From: Elusimicrobiota bacterium
GTDB lineage: Bacteria > CG03 > SLGR01 > PWQF01
Reading direction: 5' to 3'
NCBI GenBank assembly: GCA_003557485.1
Contig: PWOI01000062.1
Coordinates: forward strand, 1-8,476
DNA length: 8,476 nt
A program made the position numbers and the translations under genes. Positions within the stretch are counted from its first letter, which is position 1; every line of letters starts with the position of its first letter. Positions 1 to 5,209 of this stretch are shown in pieces. The notes beneath the pieces are model-generated. The model made no database searches. It saw only the letters and a program-made list of their open reading frames with translations, and was not told where the DNA came from.

Positions 1-1169
1 AGCCCGTCGCGGTATCGTCTCTCGGCCATATTGAAAGCTTCTTCGGCCTGACGCACGTTTTTCTCAAGGGCAGCTATTGTCTCTTCTTCTTTTATAAGGG
101 TGTAATATGCTTCTTCCACCTCAAGAAGAACAGCCTGGCGCGAATGTTCAAAGCTGTAATTCAGCTGCGCCAGACGCGAACGGGCCCGGGCTGTTTCAGA
201 GTATGTTGAAAAACCGCGAAATATAGGAAGAGATACATTAACCATAAAGTTCCAGCTCTCGCCCCAGGAATCCCTGAACCCGTCTGGATGATCAAACCTG
301 CGGTTATAGGCTGCTGTCACCTGGGGAAAAGCGGCGCTTCGGGCAATTGTTATTCCTCTGCCGGCAGCATCTTCACGGAGTTCAAAAATAATTAACTCCG
401 GCCTCTCTTCAAGGGCTTTTTTGATATAATCTTCAAGAAGCCTGCTCTTATATTCTGCCTTAAGGTCTCCTTCAGGAACTACCAGGCAGTCATCCCTTCC
501 CATAAGCAGAGCCAGAGAAGACCTGGCCATGCGGAGATTATTCTTTGACTCTATAATACGGGGTTTTATATTTGAAAGCTGCACTTCCGAGCGGAGAAGG
601 TCAAGCCTTGAAGCAAGGCCGTTTTCGTAAAGCCTCCTTGTCTGCTGCAGATATTTCTCCAGGCGCTTCTCAGACTCACGGTTTAGATCAACCATTTTTT
701 CCGCAAGCAGGGCGCCGTAAAACGCCTGTGTTATTTCAAACTCAAGCCTGTTAAGCTGCATGCGGTAGTTTTCCTCCTGTATTTTTACCTCGGCCGAAGC
801 GCTCCTGTATATAGCCGTATTCCTAAATCCGGTAAAAACAGGAAGCTGCACGCTTGCAGTTATGTCATAACGGTCCGCAGAAGTGTATGTGTCCGGAACA
901 GGCACCATCGGCACAGGTTCTTCATCGAGTCTAGTATATGTTCCCCCGAGCGTAAGGGAAGGAAGAAAATTGCCGGCAGCCTCCAGCAACCCTTTTCTTG
1001 CTTCATTTATTTTTTCCTTTGCGGCAAGCAGGTCCCTGTTATTATCTTTTGCCGCTGCTATACATTCCTCAAGTGTCATACTTACCTGCGGCTTTTCGTA
1101 TGAATAAAGCCGCGCGGCAGAAAGCAAGGGAAAGAGAATGATAATATTTACTATGATTTTCCGGTTCAT
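1..1169 (-). CDS. TolC-family outer membrane efflux protein (partial, C-terminus beyond window)
   Basis: An outer-membrane factor of the TolC/OEP family, which forms the trimeric exit duct for RND-, ABC- or MFS-type efflux and type I secretion systems. The frame is open from the ATG to the left edge, giving 389 residues; the family usually has 420-480, so roughly 30-90 are missing. Residues 1-24 look like a signal peptide (basic MNRK, then a hydrophobic run). A first OEP repeat begins with MTLEECIAAA (31-40) and contains the strand-turn motif LPVFTGF (109-115); a second repeat has the matching LPIFRGF near residue 313. Long charged, Leu/Ala-rich stretches between them fit the periplasmic helical barrel. 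The start codon overlaps the stop of the marR-type gene as ATGA, and a GGAG (1183-1180) lies 10 bases upstream, so translation is probably coupled. Adaptor and pump genes would be expected further left. The substrate is unknown. Confidence 0.9.
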   Translation of the reverse strand, partial: MNRKIIVNIIILFPLLSAARLYSYEKPQVSMTLEECIAAAKDNNRDLLAAKEKINEARKGLLEAAGNFLPSLTLGGTYTRLDEEPVPMVPVPDTYTSADRYDITASVQLPVFTGFRNTAIYRSASAEVKIQEENYRMQLNRLEFEITQAFYGALLAEKMVDLNRESEKRLEKYLQQTRRLYENGLASRLDLLRSEVQLSNIKPRIIESKNNLRMARSSLALLMGRDDCLVVPEGDLKAEYKSRLLEDYIKKALEERPELIIFELREDAAGRGITIARSAAFPQVTAAYNRRFDHPDGFRDSWGESWNFMVNVSLPIFRGFSTYSETARARSRLAQLNYSFEHSRQAVLLEVEEAYYTLIKEEETIAALEKNVRQAEEAFNMAERRYRDG

Positions 1170-1624
1170 TGAAGGGGTTCTCCGTATTTAATAATAAGCC
1201 TGTAAAGTTCTCCGAAAGACCTGATAAATTCTTCGCGGTCTTCAGAACTGAATTTCTCCAAAAACCGGGAGAGCCTGTCTTTATGTAAACTTTTAATTTT
1301 ATCGCATATGTCTTTGCCTTTTTGTGTAAGAAAGATGTTGACCACTCTCCTGTCGTTATCAGATCTTTTTCGCTCTACAAACTCTTTGCTTTCCAGCTGG
1401 TCGGTAAAATGAGTCATCATGGCAGATGAGATATCCAGGCTATTTACAAGGTCCTTCATACTTGGCGACCCCAGCCTCACTATTTCCCGGAGTATAAGAA
1501 TATGAGCCAGGCTCAAGTCATACTTGAGGATATCTTCCGTAACTTTAAAAGCAAGAGCTTTTCTCATCCGCGGAACAGCCACAAAGGCTTCATCCAGAAA
1601 CTGTTTTGTTTTATATGTTTTCAT
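1166..1624 (-). CDS. MarR-family winged-helix transcriptional regulator
   Basis: A 152-residue protein of normal MarR length. Family members bind palindromic DNA as dimers and usually repress a neighbouring efflux or stress operon until a small ligand or oxidation releases them. The winged helix covers about residues 37-102. The helix-turn-helix is near 55-80 (SMKDLVNSLDISSAMM, then a recognition helix with THFTDQLE), and the wing carries the diagnostic DNDRR at 89-93 between two beta strands. N- and C-terminal helices (1-35 and 105-150) would form the dimer interface. It is the first gene of the operon, overlapping the TolC-family gene by 4 bases, so efflux is the likely target. Upstream lie a consensus-like promoter and two palindromes suited to autorepression. 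No Shine-Dalgarno precedes the chosen ATG and the predicted transcript begins almost at it, so the message may be leaderless. Met20 is an alternative start but also lacks a ribosome site. The inducer cannot be predicted. Confidence 0.92.
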   Translation of the reverse strand: MKTYKTKQFLDEAFVAVPRMRKALAFKVTEDILKYDLSLAHILILREIVRLGSPSMKDLVNSLDISSAMMTHFTDQLESKEFVERKRSDNDRRVVNIFLTQKGKDICDKIKSLHKDRLSRFLEKFSSEDREEFIRSFGELYRLIIKYGEPLQ

Positions 1625-1714: not shown

Positions 1715-2098
1715 TCAATAAAAGCCACCAAGGAAATCAGCTATGATATCTCTCCTGGTTATTATTCCAACAACTTTGCTGCCATCAAGTACAGGAAGGC
1801 GCCTGTAGGGAAACTTAGTAAATGTTTTTGTTATTTCTTCCAGAGGATCCGAAACTTTAACTGATACAACTTTTTTATTCATTATTTCACCAGCTCTGAG
1901 AGAAGAAAAATTATCTTTTGCCGTAGCTTCAATTATATTTACTTCGGAAACAATTCCTTTAATATTATTATTTCTATCAACCACCGGAACACTGGAGGCT
2001 TTTTTTTCTACCATTACCCTTCCTATACGGGCAACAGGGGTAATTTCATCAACAGTCACCATGTTTTCCTTTTTCATGATATCTCTGGCTGTAACCAT
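1715..2098 (-). CDS. possible internally initiated CBS-pair protein (127 aa, same frame)
   Basis: An alternative product nested in frame at the 3' end of the GH65-CBS gene. The ATG for residue 773 is preceded by GGGAGG (2112-2107) with 8 bases between GGAGG and the ATG, a better initiation site than that of the full-length gene. The product would begin MVTARDIMKKEN and contain exactly the two CBS domains, the size of free-standing bacterial CBS-pair proteins. Such pairs dimerise and bind adenine nucleotides, so a free copy could form mixed assemblies with the fused one or act elsewhere. The site may instead be the relic start of a formerly separate gene. The sequence shows the site; use of it is inference. 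Confidence 0.4.
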   Translation of the reverse strand: MVTARDIMKKENMVTVDEITPVARIGRVMVEKKASSVPVVDRNNNIKGIVSEVNIIEATAKDNFSSLRAGEIMNKKVVSVKVSDPLEEITKTFTKFPYRRLPVLDGSKVVGIITRRDIIADFLGGFY

Positions 2099-4414
2099 TT
2101 CTCTTTCCTCCCGGGTACTGATAACCCTGTACTTGAAAGGCAGAAGATCATACTGCTTTCCAAAAATTTCAATAATCCTTTTATTTTTCCTGCTGTTTTT
2201 ATTTTTAGCCGGAACAACCCGGACACGCACATTCCTGCCGAAAATTTCAATTTCATACCTGTCGGACTGATAAAAAAAGTTAAAAGCCAGCCTTGAAAAA
2301 TTTCCAGGAAGGCGCGGTGATATTTTCAATATCCCGTTCCCGACACGCACACCTGCAAAACCGTTTACAAGAGCCTGCCAGACACCTCCCAGGTTAGCGG
2401 CATGAATACCGTCGGATGTATTTCCGGCAATATCCATTATATCAAGGTTTGCGGCAATCCAGAAAAACTTAAAGGCCCTGAACATATCGCCCATTTCTGC
2501 CGCTGCAAGAGAGTGGGCGGAGAATGAAAGAGAGGACTTATGCAGGGTTCTTTTCATATAAAAATCATAATTTATCTTTTTTTCTTCTTTTGAAAAACCG
2601 TCAGGAAAAAGGCAGAAAAGCAGAACTACGTCAGCCTGTTTTAAAAACCTTGTTTTTTCCAGCCCTTCAAGCTCGGTATATTTCGGTGCTTCCGGAAGAA
2701 AGTATTTGTCATAAGATTTAATTCTGACATCTTTCTTTCTAAGGTAGCTTTTGAACTGGGTTATTATCCCGTATTTCTTTGATCGGGGAAACACAATCAA
2801 CGATGCTATGCTTCTCCATTTTACGACTTCTTTATCCTTTAATTTTATGCGACGCTTAATACTCTGAAAACCCGGAAGGCCCTTAAGTTCCTCATATAGA
2901 GAAGCCGCCCTTTCCAAGTTCCAGGAAGCCATATAATTGGTAAAAGCATTGTCGTCAACATCAACGTGGAATTCGTCCGGGCCTATAACACTGTCTATAT
3001 GGTAAAACCCCTCTTTTTTCTTTACCCTGCTTGTCCAGAACCTGGCTGTTTCAAATATTATTTCCGCACCGCATTTAAGCATAAACTCACTGTCTCCGGT
3101 CAAGCGGCAGTACTCGCTTATACCGTAAGCCACATCAGCTGTTATGTGATGCTCAAAATCCTGGGTAAATACCTGGCCAATCGACCCGTCCAGGCCTTTA
3201 GCGTAGCGCGGGGTCTGTTCCTGGCCGTCCGGTGTTGATTCCCAGGGATACATAGCCCCTTTGTACCCTTTTGAAGCGGCTATGCCCCTTGCAGCGTTGA
3301 GAGTATTATACCTGAGCATAAGAAGCTGTTTTGCCAGTCCGGGAAAAACGTGGATAAAAAATGGAAGAAGATATATTTCAGTATCCCAGAATACATGTCC
3401 TTTATACCCTTCGCCGCTAAGCGTTTTTGCTCCGATACTGAAACGGCCGTACTCTTCACCCGCAGATATTATTAAGTGATACATACAGAACCTGACAGCG
3501 AGCTGGGATTCTTCATCTCCTTCTATTACAACGTCAGCATCCTCCCATTTCTGGAGCATCGCTTTTTCGTGGGCTTTAAAGAGTTTTTCAAAACCCTCTT
3601 CTACTGCAGAATTGAGGTCTCTCATTGTTTCCCTTTTCAAGGATCTGCTGTCATAATCAAGTGACGTTTTTATACAGAATATTTTTGTGAAGGTTATTTT
3701 CTGATTTGTTTTTAATTCAAAATCATGAATCCGCCCGTTAAGAAACTCACTGTTTCTACCGGATTCAACTTCAAGGCTATCCGCTACCGATATTACATGG
3801 CGATAGGAATTTGTGCGGAAGGCAATATAGTCAGAAGCTTCTTCTTTGTCAGCTTTTATGGTGTTAAAGTGCCTCTTCTTTGACATCATAAGGCCGCCGG
3901 AGTTGTAGACCGAATCATCTATACTGTCAACAGCCGTAAGTGAAGCGCTTCCTTTTACAAGTTTCAATGAAATTTTCATTGCCCCTATATGCGGGTTATC
4001 CATACTGAAAAATCTTAACGAACGGTAAACAAAAACCCTGCCTTTTGCGTCTTTAAATCTGGTTTCCCTTACTATTGCTGCCTTTTTCATATCAAGAATT
4101 CTTCGGTGAGAAAGTATTTTCATTGCAAAGATATCAAACTTTTCACCGTCTACTGCTAAAATAAAATTTATTGGATTGGGAAGGTTTACCAGTTCGTCAA
4201 CCTGCGCACCTGATTTATCAAATATGCCCGGGATGAAAGTGCCGGGCTGGCAGCCGGAAGGATTTTCTTCATATATACCCCTGGAACCGACAAAGCCGTT
4301 CCCCAGGGCAAATTTACTCTCTGCGAAATTTTGTTTTTTTATGTCAGGCCCGGTTTCTTCCAACCGGAAAGTAGTATCTGAAGATATATATTTTTTAATA
4401 AAATCGCTTTTCAT
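1715..4414 (-). CDS. GH65 disaccharide phosphorylase fused to a C-terminal CBS-domain pair
   Basis: A glycoside hydrolase family 65 enzyme, a group of inverting phosphorylases that split alpha-linked glucose disaccharides (maltose, trehalose, kojibiose, nigerose) with phosphate into beta-glucose 1-phosphate and glucose. Residues 1-270 form the N-terminal beta-sandwich, with the family's LGNGFVGSRGIYEE at 37-50. The (alpha/alpha)6 catalytic barrel follows: GHVFWDTE (339-346), GPDEFH (478-483) with Glu481 as expected general acid, KQADV (592-596), and NTSDGIHAANLGG (665-677), part of the phosphate-binding region. The GH65 part ends near 765, close to usual family length. About 127 extra residues form two CBS domains (about 773-830 and 843-898); the second has the nucleotide-ribose motif GIITRRD (883-889), the first a variant ending in Asn826. 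No signal peptide, so cytoplasmic. The chosen ATG lacks a Shine-Dalgarno, but a nine-codon ORF ends just upstream. Divergent from the beta-phosphoglucomutase gene. The disaccharide used cannot be told. Confidence 0.93.
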   Translation of the reverse strand: MKSDFIKKYISSDTTFRLEETGPDIKKQNFAESKFALGNGFVGSRGIYEENPSGCQPGTFIPGIFDKSGAQVDELVNLPNPINFILAVDGEKFDIFAMKILSHRRILDMKKAAIVRETRFKDAKGRVFVYRSLRFFSMDNPHIGAMKISLKLVKGSASLTAVDSIDDSVYNSGGLMMSKKRHFNTIKADKEEASDYIAFRTNSYRHVISVADSLEVESGRNSEFLNGRIHDFELKTNQKITFTKIFCIKTSLDYDSRSLKRETMRDLNSAVEEGFEKLFKAHEKAMLQKWEDADVVIEGDEESQLAVRFCMYHLIISAGEEYGRFSIGAKTLSGEGYKGHVFWDTEIYLLPFFIHVFPGLAKQLLMLRYNTLNAARGIAASKGYKGAMYPWESTPDGQEQTPRYAKGLDGSIGQVFTQDFEHHITADVAYGISEYCRLTGDSEFMLKCGAEIIFETARFWTSRVKKKEGFYHIDSVIGPDEFHVDVDDNAFTNYMASWNLERAASLYEELKGLPGFQSIKRRIKLKDKEVVKWRSIASLIVFPRSKKYGIITQFKSYLRKKDVRIKSYDKYFLPEAPKYTELEGLEKTRFLKQADVVLLFCLFPDGFSKEEKKINYDFYMKRTLHKSSLSFSAHSLAAAEMGDMFRAFKFFWIAANLDIMDIAGNTSDGIHAANLGGVWQALVNGFAGVRVGNGILKISPRLPGNFSRLAFNFFYQSDRYEIEIFGRNVRVRVVPAKNKNSRKNKRIIEIFGKQYDLLPFKYRVISTREEREMVTARDIMKKENMVTVDEITPVARIGRVMVEKKASSVPVVDRNNNIKGIVSEVNIIEATAKDNFSSLRAGEIMNKKVVSVKVSDPLEEITKTFTKFPYRRLPVLDGSKVVGIITRRDIIADFLGGFY

Positions 4415-4500: not shown

Positions 4501-4529
4501 TTGACATATGCACAACCTTGGTTTAAAAT
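4501..4529 (+). promoter_or_regulatory. sigma70-type promoter of the beta-phosphoglucomutase gene
   Basis: A perfect -35 TTGACA (4501-4506), a 17-base spacer and a -10 TAAAAT (4524-4529) give a strong predicted promoter. Transcription would begin near 4536, about 29 bases before the start codon. The perfect 8-base palindrome CACATGTG (4530-4537) lies at the predicted start point, and AACC-TT-GGTT (4514-4523) in the spacer. Either could be part of a sugar-repressor operator, though both are short. Confidence 0.7.
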
Positions 4530-4564: not shown

Positions 4565-5209
4565 ATGACCGAGGGAGCAATTTTTGACCTTGACGGCATA
4601 GTTGTTGATACTGTGCCTATTCATTTCGCAGCCTGGAAAAAAATGTTTTCCGAATACGGAAAAAATTTTACTTTTGAAGATTATAAAGAAAAAGTCGACG
4701 GGATACCCCGTATTGACGGGGCCGCTGCTGTGCTTACGGAACTTAAAGAAAAAGAACTTCAAGAGGCTGCAAACCTAAAACAGAAATATTTCCGCAGTGA
4801 ACTTGACAGTGCTAAAATACCGGTCTACGATTCCACCGTAAAACTCATAAGAGATTTAAAAAATAGAGGCCTTCCCGTAGGTGTTATTTCTTCAAGTAAG
4901 AACTGTACGCATATACTAAAAAATATCGGCATTTATGATTTACTTGACACAGTAGTAGACGGGAGCAGAGGGCTTAAAGGAAAACCTGATCCGGAAATTT
5001 TCCTGGTAGCCGCAAAAGAACTGGGTGTTTCACCGGAAAAATGTGTGGTTTTTGAGGATGCGGCCCTTGGTGTTGAATCTGCAAAAAAGGCTGGAATGTA
5101 TGTTGTTGGAGTAGACCGATATTCAAACCCTTCCCGGCTCAGTTCTTCCGATAAAATTATAAACGATGCGGAAGAATTAACTGCTTCTGAAGTTGCAGGA
5201 CTTATTTAA
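4565..5209 (+). CDS. pgmB: beta-phosphoglucomutase-type HAD hydrolase-family protein
   Basis: A 214-residue HAD-superfamily enzyme expected to convert beta-glucose 1-phosphate to glucose 6-phosphate through a beta-glucose 1,6-bisphosphate intermediate, in the cytoplasm. Motif I FDLDG (7-11) supplies the nucleophile Asp8 and acid/base Asp10. Thr16 and His20 match the hinge and cap positions of the Lactococcus lactis enzyme, and DGIPR (45-49) matches its cap substrate loop, with Arg49 at the same number. Motif II is ISSSKN (108-113), motif III GKPDPE (139-144) with Lys140, and motif IV FEDAALG (163-169) with Glu164/Asp165 for magnesium. The divergent GH65 phosphorylase makes exactly this substrate, a pairing common in bacteria, and supports mutase over generic phosphatase. 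The start follows AAAGGAG (4551-4557) after 7 bases. The gene ends 3 bases before the converging membrane-protein gene. Confidence in family is very high, in substrate good. Confidence 0.9.
   Translation: MTEGAIFDLDGIVVDTVPIHFAAWKKMFSEYGKNFTFEDYKEKVDGIPRIDGAAAVLTELKEKELQEAANLKQKYFRSELDSAKIPVYDSTVKLIRDLKNRGLPVGVISSSKNCTHILKNIGIYDLLDTVVDGSRGLKGKPDPEIFLVAAKELGVSPEKCVVFEDAALGVESAKKAGMYVVGVDRYSNPSRLSSSDKIINDAEELTASEVAGLI

Follow-up and report, generated by a model that had tools for sequence, protein, structure and literature searches.

Does the locus described here encode a disaccharide phosphorylase that carries its own nucleotide sensor? The window (the whole 8,476-nucleotide stretch of DNA analysed, from an Elusimicrobiota bacterium) contains a gene in which an initial annotation, made from the sequence alone, had read a complete GH65 enzyme followed in one frame by two CBS domains. 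To our knowledge, allosteric control of disaccharide phosphorylases has hardly been described; glycogen phosphorylase is the classical AMP-controlled case and has a different fold and site. The initial annotation did not know the fusion as a described enzyme, and we likewise found no precedent for a GH65 or maltose phosphorylase with CBS domains in the literature searched, a body of work whose coverage excludes most subscription journals. The GH65 family and regulation by CBS domains are both known already. Their union appears to be new, and it makes this protein a variant, probably confined to one lineage, of an established family of enzymes.

Architecture and distribution of the fusion

All of the motifs quoted in the initial annotation (GPDEFH with Glu481, FWDTE, KQADV, NTSDGIHAANLGG and GIITRRD) were located in the translation of a single 899-residue frame (Table 1). 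Pfam bears out the claimed order of GH65 enzyme and then two CBS domains, and the frame lies on the minus strand, a point on which the annotation was silent. The three GH65 families PF03636, PF03632 and PF03633 each score above their cut-offs, and PF00571 matches two tandem stretches (9e-24, 84 bits against a cut-off of 24), giving two tandem CBS domains, a candidate Bateman module. The length that the annotation took as usual for GH65 enzymes also agrees with our data, as most unfused relatives are 722–803 residues long.

Table 1. Positions of the fusion gene, its domains and motifs, and the divergent neighbouring gene in the window.
Feature	Residues	Window position	Strand	Remarks
GH65 (predicted phosphorylase)-CBS fusion gene		1715..4414	minus	899 aa, ATG start, uninterrupted frame without internal stop
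GH65 N-terminal domain	20-251	3662..4357	minus	Pfam PF03636, 1.6e-42
GH65 catalytic domain (GH65m)	308-680	2375..3493	minus	Pfam PF03632, 6.4e-106
General acid of GH65 catalytic domain	Glu481	2972-2974	minus	
GH65 C-terminal domain	690-735	2210..2347	minus	Pfam PF03633, 9.6e-07
CBS1	about 775-833	1916..2092	minus	Pfam PF00571
Ribose motif GIVSEVN in CBS1	820-826	1937-1957	minus	
CBS2 and C-terminal tail	838-899	1718..1903	minus	Pfam PF00571 at 841-892
RRLPV in CBS2	871-875		minus	
Ribose motif GIITRRD in CBS2	883-889	1748-1768	minus	
Beta-phosphoglucomutase-family HAD gene		4565..5209	plus	TIGR02009; divergent from fusion gene

The genome from which the window comes is fragmented (212 contigs), which would suit a frameshift, chimera or assembly artefact that fused two genes, and the initial annotation had held that occurrence in this assembly alone would point to such an origin. 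The search for the architecture across genomes that it proposed gave the opposite result: the full-length fusion is present in seven genomes of the same order, the window's own and six more. The two parts meet at the same junction in all seven, the proteins form one clade, and dN/dS is low across the joined part. The six additional orthologues rule out an artefact for all practical purposes. Identity to the window protein is 84% in one genome of the same genus and 53–56% in five genomes of other genera; the same-genus copy is also found on NCBI contig PWMP01000192.1 ("Elusimicrobia bacterium isolate CSSed10_282R1").

In a tree built from the GH65 part only, the seven fused proteins cluster together, SH-aLRT support for the group is full, and the fused label changes once. 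Elsewhere in the phylum, genome G011 has a GH65 gene split over two contigs, the C-terminal piece of which ends at query residue 768 without CBS domains. The seven-member clade, the one label change and the CBS-less GH65 of G011 thus make a single origin of the fusion within this lineage most likely.

A large scan of genome contigs found no CBS domain on GH65 at any of the 79 other best loci. The same was true, among the matches listed, of about 1,200 other genomes sampled, which comprised 386 relatives and genomes of the phyla to which G065 (103), G318 (392), G259 (296), G102 (44) and G130 (3) belong; in the sampled phyla all other GH65 matches listed end near query residue 783 or before. The contig scan works through exact matches to short peptides and missed the 53–56% orthologues, and the samples of other phyla are non-exhaustive, so that confinement of the fusion to one order is likely, not proven. 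A search of viral contigs for relatives of the CBS pair returned none.

GH65 modules are joined to other partners as well. In fusions with a HAD (beta-phosphoglucomutase-like) domain, at either end, the extra domain is part of one chain, as it is here, but this domain is likely the enzyme of the next step and not a sensor as in GH65-CBS. In another small phylum GH65 is followed by a response-regulator receiver domain on the minus strand (L143:1078-3948 in G267; L144:1081-3951 in G130), in which the position of the phospho-acceptor Asp seems to be Ala (DLIISAII), so that it looks like a pseudo-receiver. This receiver-like fusion suggests that sensor-like domains have been joined to GH65 more than once. 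Separately, a GH65 module lies in a very long open frame of 3683 aa on the minus strand of L112:1-5349 (G003:C106); no Pfam domain besides GH65 was detected in the 1783 aa of this frame that were examined.

Class and substrate of the enzyme half

The nearest solved protein to the enzyme half is the kojibiose phosphorylase 3wiq (1.8e-158). A high-confidence AlphaFold model of this half superposes on 3wiq with a TM score of 0.94 (normalized to the target length) and a sequence identity of 38%. The phosphate site of GH65 phosphorylases is formed by two Ser, a His and a Lys, and hydrolases show replacements at these residues (PMC8626586). Every one of the seven orthologues retains Glu481, both phosphate-site Ser and His671; the nearest candidate for the Lys, residue 338, whose assignment is uncertain, is Lys in two of them and Arg in the other five. 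Retention of the Ser-Ser and His site supports assignment of the enzyme as a GH65 phosphorylase rather than a hydrolase.

With regard to substrate, kojibiose phosphorylases have been assigned the motif EEAPxx at CsKP positions 64, 392, 394, 402, 416 and 585 (PMC8537180). These positions read EETPFE in the window protein, with EE[TS]P common to all seven orthologues. Three of the four fixed positions (64, 392 and 402; E, E and P) therefore agree with the published motif and position 394 differs. This position is Thr or Ser in all seven fused proteins and Ala in 39 of 40 other readable aligned sequences, the sole exception being L061, which has Thr. Because of the mismatch at 394 we file the enzyme as kojibiose-type and not as kojibiose phosphorylase, and for the same reason its acceptor specificity may be shifted, possibly to an acceptor other than glucose. 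CsKP itself has the whole GH65 fold, the general acid, the Ser-Ser/His phosphate site and positions 64, 392 and 402 in common with the fusion. Unlike the fused clade it has no CBS domains, and it carries Ala394 where the clade has Thr/Ser and Lys338 where five of the seven orthologues have Arg.

The motifs of maltose, trehalose, alpha-1,3-oligoglucan and trehalose-6-phosphate phosphorylases (KV[MF]NES, TRIGPP, FAITQA and DQGQDE, respectively) were also compared, and none fits EETPFE. The initial annotation had called the protein a disaccharide phosphorylase and had named maltose, trehalose, kojibiose and nigerose as substrates to assay. The phosphorylase class is supported, the phosphate site being kept; as to substrate, the residues point to kojibiose-type alpha-1,2 glucosides over maltose, trehalose or nigerose.

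An enzyme half that acts on some other alpha-glucoside, for example one tied to the sucrose-phosphate-synthase-like glycosyltransferase (GT)/PfkB protein of this order, is a tenable though not the favored reading, and would be compatible with any view of how the enzyme is regulated. It gains from residue 394, which is Thr or Ser in every fused protein, and from the gene neighborhood in G004 and G007, where the fusion gene is adjoined, on the side opposite that of the beta-phosphoglucomutase-family gene, by a gene for such a glycosyltransferase, joined to a PfkB sugar kinase in G004 and followed by one in G007; gt and pfkB genes flank GH65 in two Clostridia as well. Against it, the kojibiose residue is conserved at three of the four defining positions, a kojibiose phosphorylase is the best match among solved proteins, and in four of the six genomes with a GT-PfkB gene this gene is on a different contig from the fusion.

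Six of the seven fusion genomes have the GT-PfkB pair, with a stop between its two parts in G007; the pair was not found in G001 or in G006, an eighth genome of the order that is 66% complete. The GT-PfkB fusion lies at L117:3307-5592, L153:1477-3933, G000:C97:6497-8401, G002:C15 and G005:C123 and is 761–818 aa long where complete; we know of no described fusion of this kind. In the two Clostridia (L064:1079-11336, L077:4638-13960) a kojibiose-type GH65 gene is clustered with the sucrose-phosphate-synthase-like GT and PfkB genes and, as read by eye, with an apparent LacI-type regulator, a sugar ABC importer and a GalT-like gene, possibly forming an alpha-glucoside pathway.

The CBS pair and its candidate ligands

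The ribose-phosphate motif of CBS domains is G-h-h-S/T-x-x-D/N (PMC11172384). The window protein has it complete in CBS1 and CBS2 alike: GIITRRD is present in CBS2, as the initial annotation had stated, and CBS1 carries GIVSEVN, which had been overlooked. Across the orthologues the motif is complete in CBS1 in five of seven (two lack the final acid) and in CBS2 in six of seven (one lacks the S/T), with at least one site in each protein, and RRLPV is invariant. Among solved proteins, a profile built from the seven CBS pairs matches best to MJ1225 (4.4e-33; PDB 3kh5/3lfz), an archaeal AMPK-gamma-like protein with the YRRLPV, G-I-I-T and FMGG (F-GG) stretches in common. Unlike the fusion, MJ1225 is a stand-alone four-CBS protein with no enzyme attached. 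AMPK gamma chains also match the profile, lower down, at about 5e-9. In AMPK gamma, His-Arg pairs hold the phosphates of AMP, and we presume that the Arg-Arg before LPV in the fusion resembles such a pair. The match to MJ1225, RRLPV and the ribose-phosphate motifs together make adenine nucleotides the most likely of the predicted ligands. A comparable arrangement is that of CBS-PPase, an inorganic pyrophosphatase that is likewise a metabolic enzyme with a CBS pair and is controlled by AMP, ADP and ATP, although its catalytic domain and reaction are unrelated to those of the GH65 fusion (PMC11172384).

AlphaFold models of the CBS part placed most residues below a pLDDT of 50 in two attempts (alignments of 2 or 1 sequences), as the alignment was too shallow.

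CBS pairs elsewhere may bind SAM, MTA or c-di-AMP, or may mainly support oligomerization. As MJ1225 is by far the best match, and the Arg-Arg before LPV is likened to the phosphate-holding His-Arg pairs of AMPK gamma, we consider it quite improbable that this pair is regulatory but made for another ligand (SAM/MTA, c-di-AMP or a diadenosine polyphosphate), despite weaker matches to MJ0100 and to the c-di-AMP protein CbpB. Also on the side of such a ligand, diadenosine polyphosphates affect CBS-PPase (PMC11172384).

The CBS pair is well conserved. Mean pairwise identity among the seven orthologues is 62.0% for GH65m, 49.6% for CBS1 and 64.3% for CBS2, in which 24 of 62 residues are invariant, and only 35.0% for residues 690–765 between the catalytic domain and the CBS pair. 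In a comparison of the window with G001, dN/dS is 0.051 for GH65m, 0.119 for CBS1, 0.070 for the CBS pair and 0.033 for CBS2, the last figure being rough since synonymous changes are near saturation there. This conservation and the low dN/dS support purifying selection on the CBS pair, which therefore does not look like an appendage that is neutral or in decay. Across the seven orthologues the C-terminal tail DIIADFLGG(F/Y)Y (window 1718-1753) hardly varies, less than most of the catalytic domain, and is likely an interface.

The CBS pair could instead be mainly structural, driving or stabilizing a dimer or higher-order assembly with little effect of nucleotides on catalysis. CBS modules do assemble into four-domain disks in homo-oligomers (PMC11172384), and the conserved tail could serve such contacts. 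We nevertheless find this reading unlikely: the ligand motifs and the basic pair of RRLPV are retained, although a protein part with a structural role alone would have no need of them, and unfused GH65 relatives manage without a CBS module.

Gene neighborhood and proposed mechanism

The divergent HAD neighbor scores 183.7 bits against TIGR02009 (cut-off 153.35) and 154.5 bits against the beta-phosphoglucomutase equivalog TIGR01990, under the cut-off of 189.4, and is thus placed in the beta-phosphoglucomutase family. A gene of this family adjoins the fusion gene in five of the seven genomes; such genes are also found near many unfused GH65 genes and are fused to some. The adjacency fits release of beta-glucose 1-phosphate by the GH65 half, a product that the neighbor likely consumes. 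A search of the intergenic region between these two genes for a divergent promoter gave one plus-strand match (4501-4529), no more than in shuffles. Window positions 3-1624 hold, on the minus strand, a gene for a TolC-family outer-membrane efflux protein and, upstream of it with a 4-base overlap, one for a MarR-family regulator; the fusion gene in G001 is likewise followed by these two genes.

Our preferred reading, to which we give a probability of about 0.55, is that the protein is a kojibiose-type inverting GH65 phosphorylase that reversibly cleaves alpha-1,2-glucosides and whose flux is set by adenine nucleotide on the CBS pair. The GH65 half would convert kojibiose, or a closely similar alpha-1,2-linked glucoside, and phosphate to beta-glucose 1-phosphate and the acceptor, or the reverse, and the beta-phosphoglucomutase that is mostly encoded alongside would form glucose 6-phosphate from beta-glucose 1-phosphate. 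At the C-terminal end, the CBS pair would fold as a Bateman module and bind AMP, ADP or ATP; in its nucleotide-bound state it would, within a homodimer, alter the catalytic rate, so that flux follows energy charge. From these features we infer what the substrate is, that a nucleotide binds, and that its binding is relayed allosterically by way of the dimer to the active site. As to the sign of control, AMP and ADP might activate and ATP inhibit; activation by AMP or ADP would suit a catabolic role. Energy-state sensing of this type may, as the initial annotation proposed, serve to spare ATP.

More tentatively, the protein may be an alpha-1,2-glucoside phosphorylase with a slightly shifted acceptor and the first of the glycoside phosphorylases to be gated by a nucleotide-sensing module like that of AMPK. 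AMP/ATP would then set the direction or rate of the reaction, perhaps so that, with GT-PfkB and beta-phosphoglucomutase taking part, the making and the breakdown of a reserve or solute sugar are kept in balance. As a conserved natural fusion, it offers a clean case in which energy sensing at the phosphorolysis step can be tested directly, in an uncultured lineage. Phosphorylases serve in making sugars, and the fusion would provide a natural part for engineering phosphorylases that respond to nucleotides.
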